The notes beneath the pieces were generated by a model. That model did not search any database. It was not told the origin of the DNA and was given only the letters and a program-made list of their open reading frames with translations. 64,000 nucleotides of DNA. Source: Halorussus rarus (GTDB taxonomy: Archaea > Halobacteriota > Halobacteria > Halobacteriales > Haladaptataceae). Shown here piece after piece: positions 29,951 through 35,914 of this stretch; position 1 is the stretch's first letter, and each line of letters starts with the position of its first letter. The stretch covers positions 930,001 through 994,000 of the forward strand of contig NZ_QPMJ01000001.1 of assembly GCF_003369835.1 (NCBI RefSeq). Reading direction: 5' to 3'. The position numbers and the translations under genes were made by a program.

Positions 29951-30319
29951 TCACCCGTCCCGCCCTGGCACCCCGGTGTGAATCCGGGCCGCGTCGACCA
30001 GGTCGTAGGTGTCCATCACCACGGTCTCGGCGACCTCCCGGACCGTCAACTCCGGGTCGACCGCCCGGCCGTGGCACCGGGCGTACAGCGCCAGCCAGTC
30101 GTTCAGCGCTCGCTCCAGTCCCTCCATCTCGTCGGCGTCGAGCGGCGCGAACTCGCCGGTTCGGGCCTCGACGTACACCGAGACGACGTCGCCGACGCCG
30201 TCCCGGAGGTACGCCACGGCGCGCTCCTCGTCCGGCGGGTCGGCCGGCGGGTCGAACGCCCGGCGGTCCGCCCGGGCGCGCGCCGCGAGGTCGTCGATTC
30301 GGTCGCGGTACTCGCTCAT
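29951..30319 (-). CDS. Hypothetical protein at the end of the fix operon
   Basis: This 122-residue soluble protein has a helical N-terminus (YRDRIDDLAARARADRRAF), a central PDEERAVAYLRDGVGDVVSVYVEARTG and a helical C-terminus (LNDWLALYARCHGRAVD and VVMDTYDLVDAARI). Its ATG lies 21 bases after the fixCX stop, so it is probably the fourth gene of the electron-transfer operon. No cofactor motif is present. The family is not recognised; it could be an assembly or partner protein for the flavoproteins. Confidence 0.7.
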   Translation of the reverse strand: MSEYRDRIDDLAARARADRRAFDPPADPPDEERAVAYLRDGVGDVVSVYVEARTGEFAPLDADEMEGLERALNDWLALYARCHGRAVDPELTVREVAETVVMDTYDLVDAARIHTGVPGRDG

Positions 30320-30340
30320 TGGATTGTGCGCCGGCCGGCC

Positions 30341-32008
30341 CTACCCCTGCTTGAACTCGACGCCCTTCCCGCCGCGGGGGTGCTCCCACTCGGTGTCGGC
30401 GACGACCGCGCAGGTGCCACACTCCACGCAGGGCTGGGTGTCGAGGCTGACCCGCTTCTCCTCGGTCCCGTTCGTCTTGACGGTCTCCTCGCGGTAGCAG
30501 CCCCCGCCGAACCCCTTCGCGCTGACCGGACAGGCGGTGACGGCCGCGCCGCTGGCCTCGACCGAGGCGTCGCGGAGCTCGATGTGGGGGTTGCCCACGT
30601 CGGTGTCGTAGGTCAGGTCCCCGATGCGCTCGACGAGGCTCTTCGGCTCGTAGTCGGCCTCGCCGGTGACGCGCTCGCCGAGCTCCTCGGCGATGACGGT
30701 CGGCAGGGTGACGTACGGCGTCCGGGTGTCGGGCACCAGCATCGAGAGCCGGGGCGAGGAGTAGAGCCGCTCCAGGGTCCCGCCGAACAGCGACACCGCG
30801 GTCCGGCCAACGCCCGAGGTGAGCACCGAGTCGGCCAGGTTCGTCACGGCCTCGTGCTCGCCCAGCGCGCTGACCGCCCGGTAGCCCGAGGGCCTGAGCT
30901 TGCCCATCACGCCCTCGTCTCGGAGCTTCTTCTCATACAGCTGTCCGGTCTTCTCGGGACTGTCGCGGAGTTTGGCCTCCGCGAACGCCTCGCCCGCGAG
31001 CCCGCCCGCGCTCACGGCGTGGTTCATCCCCTTGATGATGGGGCCCTGGGCCTGCATCTGGCCGGCGGCGTCGCCGACCACGAGCAGTCGGCCCTGGTGG
31101 GGCGACGGGTGGGCGGCCTTCTTCGAGTCGGGCACCAGCTTCGCGCTGTACTCGACCTCGTCGTAGTGGCCCTCGAGCCAGTCGGCCAGCAGGGGATGGG
31201 TCAGCAGGTTGTCGAGCAACTGGTGGGGCTCGGCCTCCTCCTCGACGATGCTGTCGAGGTGGAACACCGACCCGATGGACAGCGAGCCGTCGTTGGTGTA
31301 CACGAACCCGCCGCCCCGGACGCCCTCGAACAGGTCGCCCGAGAACAGGTGGGCCGCGCCCTCGTCGTCGGCCACGCCGAACCGGTCGGCGATGACGTCG
31401 CTCGGCACGTCCACCACGGCCTTGACGCCCTGGAACCACTCGTCGGGCTCCTCCCAGTCCATCAGGCCGGCGTCGCGGGCCAGCTCGGAGTTGACGCCGT
31501 CGGCCGCGATCACGACGTCGGCCCGGATGGGGTCGAGTTCGTCGCAGGTCACGCCCGCGATCTCGCCGTCCTCGCGGAGCAGCCCGTTGACCCGGACGTC
31601 CGTCAGCAGGCCGCCGCCGGTCTCGCTGGCCATCTCGTGGACCCGGTCGGCGGTCCACGAGTCCATCTTCCGGCGGAGCACGGCGTCGGCCCACTCGGTG
31701 TCGTGGTCGTGGAGGTCCGTGATGTCGAAGGTCTCGACCTTGTCCCCGGCCACGTTGTGGAGGAGGTAGTCGGTGACCGGCCGCTCGGTCGCCTCCTCCC
31801 GGAAGTCGGGGAACAGCCCGTCGATAGTGTAGGGCGCCGACTCCTCGGCGTAGATGAGCCCGCCGGTCACGTTCTTCGAACCGGCTTCGACCCCGCGCTC
31901 GAGCACCAGGGTCTCCACGTCGTTGCGCGCCAGTACGGCAGCGGCGGCGGCGCCGCCGGGACCCGCCCCGACGACGACCGCCTCGTAGTGTTCGTAGTCG
32001 TCAGTCAT
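30341..32008 (-). CDS. fixC: FixC-FixX fusion: ETF-quinone oxidoreductase-like flavoprotein
   Basis: This 555-residue FAD enzyme begins with the dinucleotide motif VVVGAGPGGAAAAAVLAR and continues with the GLLTDVRVNGLLREDGEI and RLLVVGDAAGQMQAQGPII regions of FixC. The last about 65 residues are a ferredoxin-like FixX module with Cys at about 493, 504, 527, 530 and 533 (ACP ... CVECGTC) and the typical WEHPRGGKGV. The pair passes electrons from ETF (FixAB) to quinone through one 4Fe-4S cluster. In most bacteria fixC and fixX are separate genes; here they are one chain. Confidence 0.93.
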   Translation of the reverse strand: MTDDYEHYEAVVVGAGPGGAAAAAVLARNDVETLVLERGVEAGSKNVTGGLIYAEESAPYTIDGLFPDFREEATERPVTDYLLHNVAGDKVETFDITDLHDHDTEWADAVLRRKMDSWTADRVHEMASETGGGLLTDVRVNGLLREDGEIAGVTCDELDPIRADVVIAADGVNSELARDAGLMDWEEPDEWFQGVKAVVDVPSDVIADRFGVADDEGAAHLFSGDLFEGVRGGGFVYTNDGSLSIGSVFHLDSIVEEEAEPHQLLDNLLTHPLLADWLEGHYDEVEYSAKLVPDSKKAAHPSPHQGRLLVVGDAAGQMQAQGPIIKGMNHAVSAGGLAGEAFAEAKLRDSPEKTGQLYEKKLRDEGVMGKLRPSGYRAVSALGEHEAVTNLADSVLTSGVGRTAVSLFGGTLERLYSSPRLSMLVPDTRTPYVTLPTVIAEELGERVTGEADYEPKSLVERIGDLTYDTDVGNPHIELRDASVEASGAAVTACPVSAKGFGGGCYREETVKTNGTEEKRVSLDTQPCVECGTCAVVADTEWEHPRGGKGVEFKQG

Positions 32009-32029
32009 CGTTGTCCTCCGCGTTCGTCG

Positions 32030-33598
32030 TCAGTCATCGCTCGCCTCGGCCGTCATCGTCAGTTCGCCCGCCTCGACCGACTCGGTCAGGCGGGGGAGCA
32101 CGTCGAACAGGTCGCCCTCGACGAAGTAGTCGCTGAAGTCCCTGATGCGGGCGTCGGTGTCGGTGTTTATCGCCACGATGGTGTCGGACTCGTCCATCCC
32201 GACCTTGTGCTGGACCGCGCCCGAGATGCCGGCCGCGATGTACAGCGTCGGCTGGACCACCTGGCCGGTCTCGCCGATCTGGCGCTCCTCGGCCACGTAG
32301 TCGGCGACGTGGCCGTCCACGTCGTAGGAGGCCGTCACCACGCCCCGCGAGAGGCCGAGGGCGGCGTCGTCGAAGGCCTCGACCAGGTCGAGGCCGAGTT
32401 CGATGCCCTCGGTCGGGTCGTCACCGATGCCCCGACCTAGCGCCACGACGACCTCGTGACCGGTGAGGTCGACCCCCTCGTCGAGGCGGTCGAACTCGGT
32501 CACCTCGACCCGGAACCAGTCGTCGGGCAGGGAGATGTCGTGTTCGACGACCTGGCCCTCCCGCTCGTAGTCGGGGTCGATGGGGTCGAAGCTGCCGGGA
32601 ATCACCGAGCAGCCCTGCGGGTGGAACTCCCGGCCGGGGTTGTCCAGACACAGAATCGTGGAGTACTCGAACCCCGAGAAGTCCGGCCGCTTCATGTGGA
32701 GCACGCGCTCGAACTCCACCTTCTCGCCGGGCTCGCCCGTCTTCACGGGGTTCGAGACGAGCTCCTTCTCGATGGTCAGTCCCGAGCAGTCGCTGGCCAG
32801 CCCCGAGTCGAGTTCGCCCTGGACCTGCGCCGAGAGGTCCCGGCCGTTGTTCGTCGCCGGGAACAGGAAGTACCGGGGTTTGTCGTAGTCGCGCCACTCG
32901 GCGGTGGGTTCGGTGCCGGGGTCGCCGGTCTCCCAGTTCGGGGGCTCGGCCCCGCCGCGGGCCATGTCGGCGACGATCTCGGTGTACGGCTTGTGGCGGA
33001 ACCGCTCCAGACGGTCGTCCTCGTGGTAGATGGCCACGTCCGCGCCGTAGGCGACGACCTCGTCGGTGAGGTCGGCAACAGTCTCGTCGCCCACGAGCAC
33101 GCCGACGACGCGCTCGTCGCCGTCGTACTCGTCGTTGTACGCGTCCATCAGCTCGCGGGCCTTCCCGAGCATCTCCTTGGACACGTCGAGGAGTTCGCCC
33201 TGCTGGGTCTCGCAGTAGACCCACATGTCCTCGTACGCGCCGCCCTTCAGCGCCCGGACGTGCTTCTTGTCGCGGGTGTGGTTCTCGACCTCGTAGTTGA
33301 CCTCGCCGTCGTCGGTGGATTCGCCATCGCCTTCGCCGCCGGCAGTTTCGGGCGCCTCGGTGCCGCCCTCGTCGGCGTACTCCTCCTCGTGGTCGGTATC
33401 GGCGGGCTCGCCCGGCGTCTCCGCTTCCAGCTCGTCGATGCGAGCCTGGATGGCCTCCCTGGCGGTCTTGCGGTCGTCGCCCTCCTGCTCGGCCGCGAGG
33501 GCGGCGTCCAGGTCGGCCGGGTCCTCGACCGACGCGAGCTTCTCCTCAAGTTCGTCGACCGTGTACTCGCTCGGGTCGAGGTCGACGTCGTCGCCCAC
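32030..33598 (-). CDS. fixB: Electron transfer flavoprotein alpha subunit (FixB), extended
   Basis: This 522-residue protein is much longer than the usual about 320. About residues 1-108 are an added acidic region (a helical DELEEKLASVEDPADLDAAL part, then an Asp/Glu/Gly-rich linker). The ETF fold follows, with the FAD-binding domain near the C-terminus (QIGETGQVVQPTLYIAAGIS from about 440, AVQHKVGM and VAINTD). Inserted loops also lengthen the N-terminal ETF domain (around 210-250). It pairs with FixA, whose stop lies only two bases upstream. Confidence 0.93.
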   Translation of the reverse strand: MGDDVDLDPSEYTVDELEEKLASVEDPADLDAALAAEQEGDDRKTAREAIQARIDELEAETPGEPADTDHEEEYADEGGTEAPETAGGEGDGESTDDGEVNYEVENHTRDKKHVRALKGGAYEDMWVYCETQQGELLDVSKEMLGKARELMDAYNDEYDGDERVVGVLVGDETVADLTDEVVAYGADVAIYHEDDRLERFRHKPYTEIVADMARGGAEPPNWETGDPGTEPTAEWRDYDKPRYFLFPATNNGRDLSAQVQGELDSGLASDCSGLTIEKELVSNPVKTGEPGEKVEFERVLHMKRPDFSGFEYSTILCLDNPGREFHPQGCSVIPGSFDPIDPDYEREGQVVEHDISLPDDWFRVEVTEFDRLDEGVDLTGHEVVVALGRGIGDDPTEGIELGLDLVEAFDDAALGLSRGVVTASYDVDGHVADYVAEERQIGETGQVVQPTLYIAAGISGAVQHKVGMDESDTIVAINTDTDARIRDFSDYFVEGDLFDVLPRLTESVEAGELTMTAEASDD

Positions 33599-33600
33599 GG

Positions 33601-34452
33601 TCAGTCACCTCCCGCGAGCGGCCGCATCTCGTCGAGCACCTGCTCCATCCCCTCGGGGTCGTCGGGGGTGACCATCGTGGCCTCGCGCTCCGAGGGCGCC
33701 TTCGGGATGGGGTCGACGCCCGAGACGATGGTCGGCGAGCCGTCGAGGCCGATGAAGTCGGGGTCGAGGTCGAGCTCTTCGGCGCTCCACGACGTGAGGT
33801 GGTCCTCGTACTCCTCGACGCGCTCCTCGGTCTCGGCCCGCAACCGCTTGTGCCGGAGTCGGTGTTCGGCCCGGCGGTACGAGGGCTCGAACTCGGGGTC
33901 GGTCACGACGAACGCGGGCAGGGGCGCCTCGACGGTCTCTATCTCGTCGACGTCGCCCTCCACCAGGCGCTTGGCCCGGAGCTGGCCGGCCTCCTCGTCG
34001 ACCTCCAGGGAGATGACGTGGGTGACGATGGACCGGTCGAGACACCAGCAGGTCTGGGGACCGGTCTGACCGGTCTCGCCGTCGGCGGTCTTGAAGCCCG
34101 CGAACACGACGTCGGGCTCCTCGTCGAGCTTCTCGATGCCCGCCGACAGCGTGATCGCGGTCGCCCACGTGTCGGAGGCGGCCAGTTCCCGGTCCGAGAG
34201 CAGGTAGAGGTCGTCGGCGTACACCCCCATCGCCTCCTCCAGCACGCTCTCGTAGCCCGGCGGCCCCATGCTCATCACGCTCACCGTGCCGCCGCGTTTG
34301 ACCTTGGTCTGGAGCGCCGCCTCCAGCGCGAACTCGTCGTTGGGGTTCATCACGGTGGGGGTCGCACCGCGCTCGAGGTGGCCGTCCTCGTCGAACGACA
34401 CCTGCCCCTCGCGGAAGTCCGGCACGCCCTTCGTCAGCACTACCGAGTGCAT
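33601..34452 (-). CDS. fixA: Electron transfer flavoprotein beta subunit (FixA)
   Basis: This 283-residue beta subunit of the ETF heterodimer contains VVLTKGVPDFREGQ at the N-terminus, MNPNDEFALEAALQTK, and a central FAGFKTADGETGQTGPQTCW loop region that binds the partner nucleotide. FixA of the bifurcating type binds FAD; mitochondrial-type ETF-beta binds AMP; I cannot separate these by eye. The ATG at 34452 matches the ETF-beta N-terminus, so the 14 extra upstream codons are excluded; those codons overlap the dyad at the promoter. First gene of a four-gene minus-strand operon. Confidence 0.92.
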   Translation of the reverse strand: MHSVVLTKGVPDFREGQVSFDEDGHLERGATPTVMNPNDEFALEAALQTKVKRGGTVSVMSMGPPGYESVLEEAMGVYADDLYLLSDRELAASDTWATAITLSAGIEKLDEEPDVVFAGFKTADGETGQTGPQTCWCLDRSIVTHVISLEVDEEAGQLRAKRLVEGDVDEIETVEAPLPAFVVTDPEFEPSYRRAEHRLRHKRLRAETEERVEEYEDHLTSWSAEELDLDPDFIGLDGSPTIVSGVDPIPKAPSEREATMVTPDDPEGMEQVLDEMRPLAGGD

Positions 34453-34482: not shown

Positions 34483-34497
34483 CCCATGAGTCATGGG
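34483..34497. promoter_or_regulatory. Perfect dyad at the fix operon start site
   Basis: CCCATGAGTCATGGG has 7-bp arms around one central base. It lies 15-29 bases downstream (minus strand) of the AT-rich promoter box, so it covers the expected transcription start. This is a good position for a repressor. Confidence 0.6.
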
Positions 34498-34660: not shown

Positions 34661-35914
34661 TTACTCGTCGGCGGGGGACTCGACCGCCGGGTCGGCGTCG
34701 TCGACCTCGCGCTCCGGGTCGCTCTGGGCGCCGGACTCCACTTCGCCGCCCGGGGCCGCGGGGGAGTCGGCGTCCGCGCCGACGTCCGTCGAAATGCTGG
34801 CGTCCGTCCGAGAGTCCGCGTCACCGTCGGCCTCGGAACCGTCACCGGTCTCGAAGTCGACGTCGAAGTCGGCCCCCGAGTCGGTCTCGGTGGCGCCCCT
34901 TCCGTCGTCGTCGGTTTCGGCGGCCTCGTCGTCAGTAGTGGCCCCGTCTCCGCCGGTCGCGGCCTCGGTATCGCCGTCGTCGGCTGCATCGCTGTTACCC
35001 GCGGACTCGCTTTCGGCGTCGTCGCCGTGGAACCGCTTGCGGCCCCCGTCGCCGTCGGCCGCGATGCGCTCGTGGGTCCCGCCCTGGACCATCGACATCT
35101 CGCCGCTGGCGCGCATCGTCCCGTCGACGACGGCGCCGTCGTGGAAGTGGAGGTCCTCGCAGGAGACGTCGCCGCGTATCTCGACGTCGTCGGCGAGTTC
35201 GACCGTCCCGCTCCGGGTGGTCACGTCGCCGTGGATGACCGTCCCCTCGTCGACCGAGATGTCGCCGCGGGCCCGGAGGCTGCCGAACACGTCGTTGCGC
35301 TCGCCGACCTCGATGGACTCGGCGCGGATGTTGCCGTGGAGCCGGCAGTCGTCGCCGATGGTCGCGGGGGTCGAGACCCGCCAGGAGTCGTCGGATACGT
35401 GGCCGTTCCGCGGGATGACGACCGGGTCGGCCTCGATGTCCTCGTTCTCCATGAGTTCGGAGACGACCTCCTGGGCGGCCTCCTCCTCGCCGATGCGGAG
35501 CAACTGCTGGAGGTAGACGAAGACGAACACGATGGTCGGCATGGGGTTGCGGATGACGATCCAGCCGTTCGCCTCGAACCCCTCCTCGATGTCGACGTCG
35601 TCGCCGATGTCGAGGTCGCCGCTCACCATCAGGCGGCCGCCGATGTGGACGCGCTCGCCGAGGTAGGCGTCGCGTCCGACCAGCACGTTGTCCTGGACGT
35701 CGGACCACATGTCGAGCCGGCAGTCGGCCTCGGCCTCGATGTGGCCGCCGAACTGCACGCGCTCGCCCGCGATGACGTTGTGACCCCGGACGCCGAACTC
35801 GACCGTGCTCTGACCGCCGACGATGACGTCGCCGTCGGTCACCAGGTCGTGCTCCTCGACGGTCGTCCCGTCCGGAATCGCGAGCTCGTCCAGTGGGTCC
35901 GATCCAAGCGGCAC
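34661..35914 (-). CDS. Polymer-forming (bactofilin-like) cytoskeletal protein
   Basis: This 417-residue protein has several tens of short beta-helix rungs (VIVGGQSTVEFGVRGHNVI, RVHIGGRLMVSGDLDIGDDV, RLHGNIRAESIEVGERNDVF, and so on) over about residues 20-290. This right-handed or bactofilin-like helix is what lets such proteins polymerise. A hydrophobic patch (PTIVFVFVYLQQLL, about 125-140) interrupts the rungs and may contact the membrane. Residues about 295-417 are an Asp/Glu/Gly/Ser/Thr-rich tail. Start is GTG at 35914, just downstream of a GTTTATTAGG box. Confidence 0.82.
   Translation of the reverse strand: MPLGSDPLDELAIPDGTTVEEHDLVTDGDVIVGGQSTVEFGVRGHNVIAGERVQFGGHIEAEADCRLDMWSDVQDNVLVGRDAYLGERVHIGGRLMVSGDLDIGDDVDIEEGFEANGWIVIRNPMPTIVFVFVYLQQLLRIGEEEAAQEVVSELMENEDIEADPVVIPRNGHVSDDSWRVSTPATIGDDCRLHGNIRAESIEVGERNDVFGSLRARGDISVDEGTVIHGDVTTRSGTVELADDVEIRGDVSCEDLHFHDGAVVDGTMRASGEMSMVQGGTHERIAADGDGGRKRFHGDDAESESAGNSDAADDGDTEAATGGDGATTDDEAAETDDDGRGATETDSGADFDVDFETGDGSEADGDADSRTDASISTDVGADADSPAAPGGEVESGAQSDPEREVDDADPAVESPADE

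Follow-up and report, generated by a model that had tools for sequence, protein, structure and literature searches.

A conserved four-gene fix operon with a FixC-FixX fusion and an altered NAD(H) motif in Halorussus rarus and other haloarchaea

A stretch of 64,000 nucleotides from Halorussus rarus (contig NZ_QPMJ01000001.1, positions 930,001 to 994,000; the window, whose own numbering is used below) contains four adjacent genes, fixA, fixB, fixCX and a small fourth gene, whose products resemble FixABCX, a system related to the electron-transferring flavoproteins (ETFs). We find that this operon recurs as a unit across the haloarchaeal order, that the residues typical of the bifurcating flavin adenine dinucleotide (FAD) are retained in it, and that its nicotinamide adenine dinucleotide (NAD(H)) motif is altered throughout. 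The genes might encode a derived haloarchaeal EtfABCX/FixABCX, membrane-associated, in which a flavin of the bifurcation type, its donor site remodelled, would couple ferredoxin to menaquinone. We regard the case for and against this reading as evenly balanced.

The fixA, fixB and fixCX genes were identified by Pfam and NCBIfam. Residues 7-372 of FixCX match the FixC model (8e-64) and residues 465-555 a ferredoxin-like FixX model (3e-6). Coordinates and domain matches thus bear out the preliminary description of this DNA, which had proposed a four-gene fix cluster with FixC fused to FixX. Successive genes are separated by 2, 21 and 21 bases, the last gap placing the 122-residue protein just where it had been reported. 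By eye, a ribosome-binding-like GAGGTG stands 5' of the fixA ATG at 34452, and a further in-frame ATG is present at 34494.

Conservation was assessed across 99 evenly sampled genomes of the order, with cut-offs of E<=1e-60 for FixCX and E<=0.001 for the fourth gene. Each was found in 66 genomes, and 65 carry both. The only genome with FixCX and no fourth gene is G048, where FixCX runs off the contig end. The only one with a relative of the fourth gene and no FixCX is G076; there the gene directly follows one that by eye resembles the bactofilin-like gene upstream of fixA (locus L241), and because of this neighbour the orphan looks like an operon remnant. Sixty of the 65 FixCX loci other than the window's own were fetched (G001, G048, G081, G089 and G096 were left out). 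In 58 of these haloarchaeal loci all four genes occur with order and strand unchanged; contig ends interrupt the remaining two. Among the named loci, the best 80 of 181, which overlap in genomes with the unnamed set, 76 have all four open reading frames (ORFs). Of the exceptions, three begin too near a contig end for fixA, and in L159 the fourth gene is split across two frames. Since it recurs in both sets of loci, the four-gene arrangement is not chance. The fourth gene, first seen as an extra unknown, is no oddity; it is a regular operon member.

In a broader set of 294 genomes from the phylum, the fourth gene occurs in 27, none of them outside the order; G234 shows a second match as well, though a weak one (5e-8). 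FixC relatives outside the order (11 genomes, E<=1e-40) are encoded in frames of 421-477 residues and align with the FixC part alone; the fusion was not seen among them. Three haloarchaeal bins of about 0.9-1.1 Mb, 58-71% complete (L120, L121, L122), nevertheless contain fused FixCX and the fourth gene.

Judged by sequence, FixA is on the bifurcating (group 2) side of the ETF family, following the grouping of PMC10734219 and PMC5861303. Its nearest chains in the PDB are of the bifurcating type, 6fah (8e-35), 5ol2 (4e-29) and 7koe (8e-29), followed by 4kpu and 7qh2 (to 3e-23), whereas the best ordinary ETF chain, 2a1t, reaches 5e-7. FixB matches bifurcating-type chains at 5e-40 to 1e-27 and ordinary ETF at 3e-23 or weaker. 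Motif states were read from an alignment of 59 FixA and 60 FixB proteins. The bifurcating-FAD motif of the DGDTAQVGP type, whose function is treated in section 8 of PMC9232219, takes the form DGETGxTGP here. The D, G, E, T and G and the later T-G are found at 59 of 59 and the P at 57 of 59; the D to E and V to T changes are clade-wide. The S, P and T of the SPT anchor each occur in 58 of the 59. The equivalent of R38 is present in all of them, and the RXGV motif here reads RGxT. All 60 FixB proteins have the Arg of RPDFSG (RPXFGG type) beside the bifurcating FAD. Its counterparts, Arg140 and Arg205, are described in parts of PMC10734219 and PMC9232219 as essential and as lying beside the bifurcating FAD, and a passage of PMC10734219 reports that each of the five ETF groups has some members with the same Arg. 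The FixA residues that the preliminary description proposed to look for are therefore present in nearly all sequences, and the linkage of the fourth gene, which it also wanted examined, is tight.

The NAD(H) motif, in contrast, is altered throughout this clade. The counterpart of RxFxG is mostly REMAA, REMGA or RELAA, with R in 58 of 59 FixA proteins, F in three and G in none, the last position being Ala in all 59. Among 72 FixA proteins from named loci, two keep the F and none the G, five of 77 falling outside the search pattern. RxFxG is unchanged in all 19 proteins used for comparison, namely ten standard haloarchaeal FixA, two rhizobial, one of acyl-CoA-dehydrogenase type, five PDB chains and one further protein that is encoded beside a FAD-binding oxidoreductase and was taken as lactate-dehydrogenase type; seven more distant ETFs, from phylum genomes of other families, lack RxFxG and stand outside this set. 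Of the FixA positions conserved within each of two sets of 19, 31 are the same in both and five differ (Q9G, A67Y, G78Y, G92A and V130T). G92A lies in the NAD motif, V130T in the FAD motif and A67Y after the MGPP stretch. According to part of PMC9232219, changing R87, F89 and G91 of Ldh-EtfAB all to Ala nearly abolishes NADH activity.

In the FixX domain, each of the five Cys is invariant in 61 of 61 sequences, and the domain has exactly five Cys in all 61. Five are too few for two clusters, so the domain can hold one [4Fe-4S] at most. For comparison, sections of PMC10734219 give Thermotoga maritima EtfX two [4Fe-4S] clusters, and a passage of PMC10765413 places cluster II on the high-potential path and calls the need for cluster I unexplained. 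FixCX has T. maritima EtfC and EtfX as its nearest solved chains. Four of the five Cys are in a CP plus CxxCxxC pattern, and by this motif the retained cluster is probably the equivalent of cluster II and of the ETF-QO (ETF:quinone oxidoreductase) cluster; we keep this assignment provisional because a pairwise alignment pairs Cys 493 with another of the T. maritima EtfX Cys. The idea that losing a FixX cluster is a novelty was considered and dropped. The FixX of two rhizobia, with six Cys each, likewise falls short of the number needed for two clusters, and a one-cluster FixX is therefore not unique to haloarchaea. Electron bifurcation, raised in the preliminary description as a capacity of FixABCX systems, is favoured by the retained bifurcating-flavin residues; a plain reading as an NADH-bifurcating FixABCX is weakened by the altered RxFxG and by a FixX with Cys for fewer than two clusters.

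Two further components set the operon apart. FixB had been described as having an acidic addition of about 108 residues. Its first 108 residues are indeed acidic (40 Asp/Glu, 5 Lys/Arg; residues 59-108 have 19 Asp/Glu and no Lys/Arg), but they are not just acidic, since they form a three-helix module followed by a disordered linker. The AlphaFold model of FixB, with a mean predicted local distance difference test score (pLDDT) of 78.8, has three confident helices within residues 14-60, a disordered acidic segment at 64-117 and then the ETF body. Among 60 FixB proteins, the module of about 51 residues is present in one copy in 22, two in 29 and three in eight, and one truncated sequence has none; the profile behind these counts was seeded from the same FixB proteins. 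Elsewhere in the Halorussus genome no copy was found at E<=0.001. Two weak matches there (E 0.12 and 0.43), the first among long overlapping reading frames, were not accepted. Pfam gave no match to the module above its cut-off, and the profile search found no module in standard haloarchaeal FixB.

The fourth protein is modelled as five helices (mean pLDDT 88.6), and G41, Y49, Y79, G84, R94, T104 and P118 are invariant among 50 aligned members. Its Pfam matches are no better than E 0.25, and NCBIfam gave none. Foldseek returned no PDB match at E<=0.001, which is not the same as a new fold; with a second structural aligner the best Z was 7.1, within the noise for helical bundles, and a sequence profile against the PDB reached an E of 0.63 at best. 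The features of the operon and its downstream neighbour are collected in Table 1.

Table 1. Features of the fix operon and its downstream neighbour, in window coordinates.
Feature	Position	Strand	Basis
fixA (EtfB-like, 283 residues), bifurcating-FAD-type subunit	33601..34452	minus	ETF domain 1.2e-34
FixA residues 88-92, RELAA, altered RxFxG NAD(H) motif	34177..34191	minus	alignment
FixA residues 124-132, DGETGQTGP, bifurcating-FAD motif (DGDTAQVGP type)	34057..34083	minus	alignment
fixB (EtfA-like, 522 residues, GTG start)	32030..33598	minus	ETF and ETF_alpha domains
FixB three-helix module, residues 7-57	33428..33580	minus	pLDDT about 95 over residues 11-60
FixB acidic linker, residues 61-118	33245..33418	minus	pLDDT <50 over residues 64-117
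FixB Arg304 in RPDFSGF, equivalent of Arg140 (T. maritima) and Arg205 (A. woodii)	32687..32689	minus	
fixCX (555 residues), FixC quinone-reductase-type flavoprotein with FixX ferredoxin-like domain	30341..32008	minus	domain matches
FixX domain, residues 466-555 of FixCX; Cys 493, 504, 527, 530, 533	30344..30613	minus	
Fourth gene (122 residues), five-helix protein	29951..30319	minus	conserved with the operon
GNAT acetyltransferase with N-terminal helix-turn-helix (HTH)-like segment	29115..29861	minus	Pfam GNAT 6e-16; HTH below cut-off

If these proteins form a derived EtfABCX/FixABCX, the bifurcating-type FAD of FixA would exchange electrons with ferredoxin. FixA and FixB, the latter with the electron-transfer FAD, would deliver electrons through the single [4Fe-4S] cluster and the FAD of FixCX to menaquinone. 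The two-electron donor site beside the FixA FAD would be remodelled, and the donor would therefore be another hydride carrier, or else NAD(P)H in an unusual mode of binding. The tethered FixB module and the five-helix fourth protein would probably serve in docking, to ferredoxin, FixCX or the membrane, or in assembly. What we observe is the genes present, their conservation, the states of the motifs, the number of Cys and, for part of the group, linkage to a ferredoxin gene; we infer the binding of cofactors, the ferredoxin partner, the menaquinone acceptor, bifurcation, the direction of flow and the roles of the module and the fourth protein. By its motifs the system lacks both marks of the NADH-dependent bifurcating EtfABCX of the T. 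maritima and A. vinelandii type, an RxFxG motif and a two-cluster X subunit. It also has the bifurcating motif that an ordinary ETF paired with ETF-QO is without, and it shares with that pair a quinone reductase having one C-terminal [4Fe-4S].

In favour of such a complex are the nearness of FixA and FixB to bifurcating-type ETFs and of FixCX to T. maritima EtfC and EtfX among solved chains, the retained bifurcating-FAD, SPT and Arg motifs, the Cys pattern that fits cluster II, and the ferredoxin gene near FixCX in part of the genomes. The counts of ordinary EtfB and acyl-CoA dehydrogenase domains given below also speak for it, as does the EtfD-like protein of the Halorussus genome. Several observations weigh against it. 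The motif change is clade-wide, with the G of RxFxG always replaced, the F nearly always and the R kept. Ferredoxin itself is present in 94 of the 99 genomes, and the idea that it is specific to the operon was dropped for that reason. In the Halorussus genome its gene is unlinked to the operon (contig C2), as it is in 28 of the 66 FixCX genomes. Where the ferredoxin gene does precede fixA, the median gap between them, about 145 bases, may mean that the two are transcribed separately.

The first alternative is that NAD(H) has been abandoned altogether and that the complex is a ferredoxin:menaquinone oxidoreductase, in which reduced ferredoxin, supplied for example by 2-oxoacid:ferredoxin oxidoreductases, would reduce the FixA FAD, from which electrons would reach menaquinone by way of FixB and FixCX with no bifurcation. 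The clade-wide change of the NAD motif, together with A67 to Tyr and V130 to Thr, is in its favour, as is the linkage to a ferredoxin gene. This gene encodes a dicluster ferredoxin (Pfam Fer4_7) in which, by eye, Asp replaces one Cys of the first cluster. In 38 of 66 genomes its distance from FixCX is no more than 9 kb, with the gene upstream in 36 and downstream in two (in one of these on the other strand). Of the 80 named loci, 60 have it upstream of fixA and on the strand of fixA, and 49 of the 60 gaps, whose median is the value given above, are within 70-260 bases. Published descriptions of two Haloferax volcanii genes fit this order. HVO_2729 is named as the ferredoxin gene ferB2 in part of PMC11349517, and a passage of PMC10821996 describes HVO_2732 as a geranylgeranyl-reductase paralogue near an ETF alpha gene; HVO_2732 is likely a member of the fused type. 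A ferredoxin:menaquinone route would also suit a 2021 review of Haloferax annotation (PMC8305020), which in the part concerned calls haloarchaeal ferredoxin reoxidation unresolved, suggests the Nuo complex and finds the tentative NADH dehydrogenase assignment questionable. However, the bifurcating-FAD, SPT and Arg motifs are conserved, and a one-electron relay has no obvious need for them. Moreover, the operon is missing from one third of the sampled genomes and so is not a general ferredoxin route. We consider this alternative rather unlikely.

The second alternative is a non-bifurcating ETF with its ETF-QO, serving dehydrogenases such as acyl-CoA dehydrogenases, with FixCX as the functional ETF-QO. 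FixCX does have the ETF-QO layout, a FAD protein with a C-terminal one-cluster domain, and its Fer4_ETF_QO score of 21.6 bits is just below the cut-off of 24. No separate ETF-QO was recognised among the listed PF05187 matches from the 99 genomes. Assigned by position or neighbours, all of these are FixCX, separate FixX or ferredoxin; the matches in G001, G018 and G042 are ferredoxin, and six otherwise unplaced ones are FixX beside FixC. Acyl-CoA dehydrogenase domains are found in 94 of the 99 genomes, including 65 of the 66 with FixCX. Against this, FixA is far from ordinary ETF in sequence and much nearer to the bifurcating kind, whose FAD motif it retains. Irrespective of the operon, 90 of the 99 genomes encode an ordinary EtfB (E<=1e-30). 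FixCX is missing from 33 genomes; acyl-CoA dehydrogenase domains occur in 29 of these, accompanied by an ordinary EtfB in 27, so the acyl-CoA dehydrogenase pathway does not require the operon. The Halorussus genome has one ordinary EtfB/EtfA pair (L006:7754-9492, contig C3), with no quinone oxidoreductase gene recognised among the ORFs listed beside it. It also encodes a protein, some 615 residues long, that combines two CCG domains with ferredoxin domains and has a membrane-subunit match slightly below the cut-off, a layout that we take to be that of EtfD-type ETF:menaquinone oxidoreductase. This EtfD-like iron-sulfur protein is a possible outlet for the ordinary ETF, and we judge a role of FixCX as the ETF-QO improbable.

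A bolder proposal is that aerobic haloarchaea converted a bifurcating EtfABCX into an NAD(H)-independent menaquinone reductase that is driven by ferredoxin, or that uses a different hydride carrier such as F420H2, and equipped it with a FixB docking module in one to three copies and a new all-helical fourth subunit. We think this unlikely. If true, such a complex would be one missing exit for reduced ferredoxin in haloarchaeal respiration.

A homologue of the GNAT acetyltransferase that follows the operon is present in 73 of the 80 named loci. It is downstream of the fourth gene in all 72 loci in which that ORF is called, and on the same strand in 68. Because it is so often found near the operon, the acetyltransferase may belong to the system or regulate it. 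The gene immediately upstream of fixA, at 34661-35914 and likewise on the minus strand, encodes a polymer-forming protein with a bactofilin domain.

A conserved flavin complex that plausibly touches both ferredoxin and menaquinone, in 66 of 99 genomes and also in several species of Haloferax, is a directly testable candidate for ferredoxin reoxidation. The operon is also a natural test of what the distal FixX cluster is for and of what becomes of a bifurcating flavin once the NAD(H) site changes. A word search of the main text of PMC8305020 gave no word starting with flavoprotein or etf. Among the open-licence papers listed for haloarchaeal or archaeal FixC, FixABCX or bifurcation, no title or abstract opening was about the fused type, and PMC10821996 mentions the likely member named above.

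Haloarchaea also carry a FixABCX of standard type, which we recovered from nine genomes and a Halomicrobium urmianum plasmid. FixA, FixB and FixC are consecutive there, and so is FixX in nine of ten. This FixX is separate, with eight or nine Cys in 9 of 10 recovered, and RxFxG is intact in 10 of 10. FixB has 336-346 residues in eight of ten, the other two ORFs being longer through an upstream start. Neither the module nor the fourth gene was found in these loci. Five of the nine genomes carry the fused type as well, and G016, G046, G054, G078 and G089 combine the fused type with a FixC beside FixX elsewhere. FixA and FixC trees (19 fused and 10 standard rows) separate the two types into clades with support of 100/99 or better. 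The two trees, in which long branches were flagged, disagree on whether the haloarchaeal types are sisters: the FixA tree unites both, and the FixC tree places the standard type with the rhizobial one. A FixB tree, built quickly and with no bootstrap, was not relied on. The plasmid locus (L248:4986-8474) is a complete standard FixABCX near universal stress protein genes. A third, more distant kind of FixB-FixC-FixX row occurs in G039 (L271:27-2520), with FixC at 7e-49 and a FixX that contains CPAQCF.

Rhizobial FixABCX, from Sinorhizobium fredii NGR234 and Bradyrhizobium guangdongense, has the same gene set and a FixX with six Cys. It differs in that FixC and FixX are unfused, RxFxG is intact and the genes stand beside nif genes. 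The mitochondrial-type ETF-QO shares with FixCX the layout of a FAD protein with one C-terminal [4Fe-4S] domain, yet FixCX matches FixC far better than ETF-QO, and FixA is distant from the mitochondrial-type ETF (1e-6 versus 8e-35); we take the chains 1efv and 2gmh to be this ETF and ETF-QO. A FixABCX has been proposed for the natronoarchaeon AArc1, with FixX as a separate gene product in the description given in part of PMC6176080. The closest solved relative of FixB (5e-40) and FixCX (3e-49) is the EtfABCX of T. maritima (7koe; FixA, 8e-29). In that complex EtfC and EtfX are separate chains, EtfX has two clusters, RxFxG is intact, and the FixB-equivalent chain, at 338 residues, has no room for the module. 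The same four functions are nonetheless represented in both, and equivalents of T. maritima R38, P239 and V242 (EtfA) and Arg140 (EtfB) are present in the haloarchaeal proteins.

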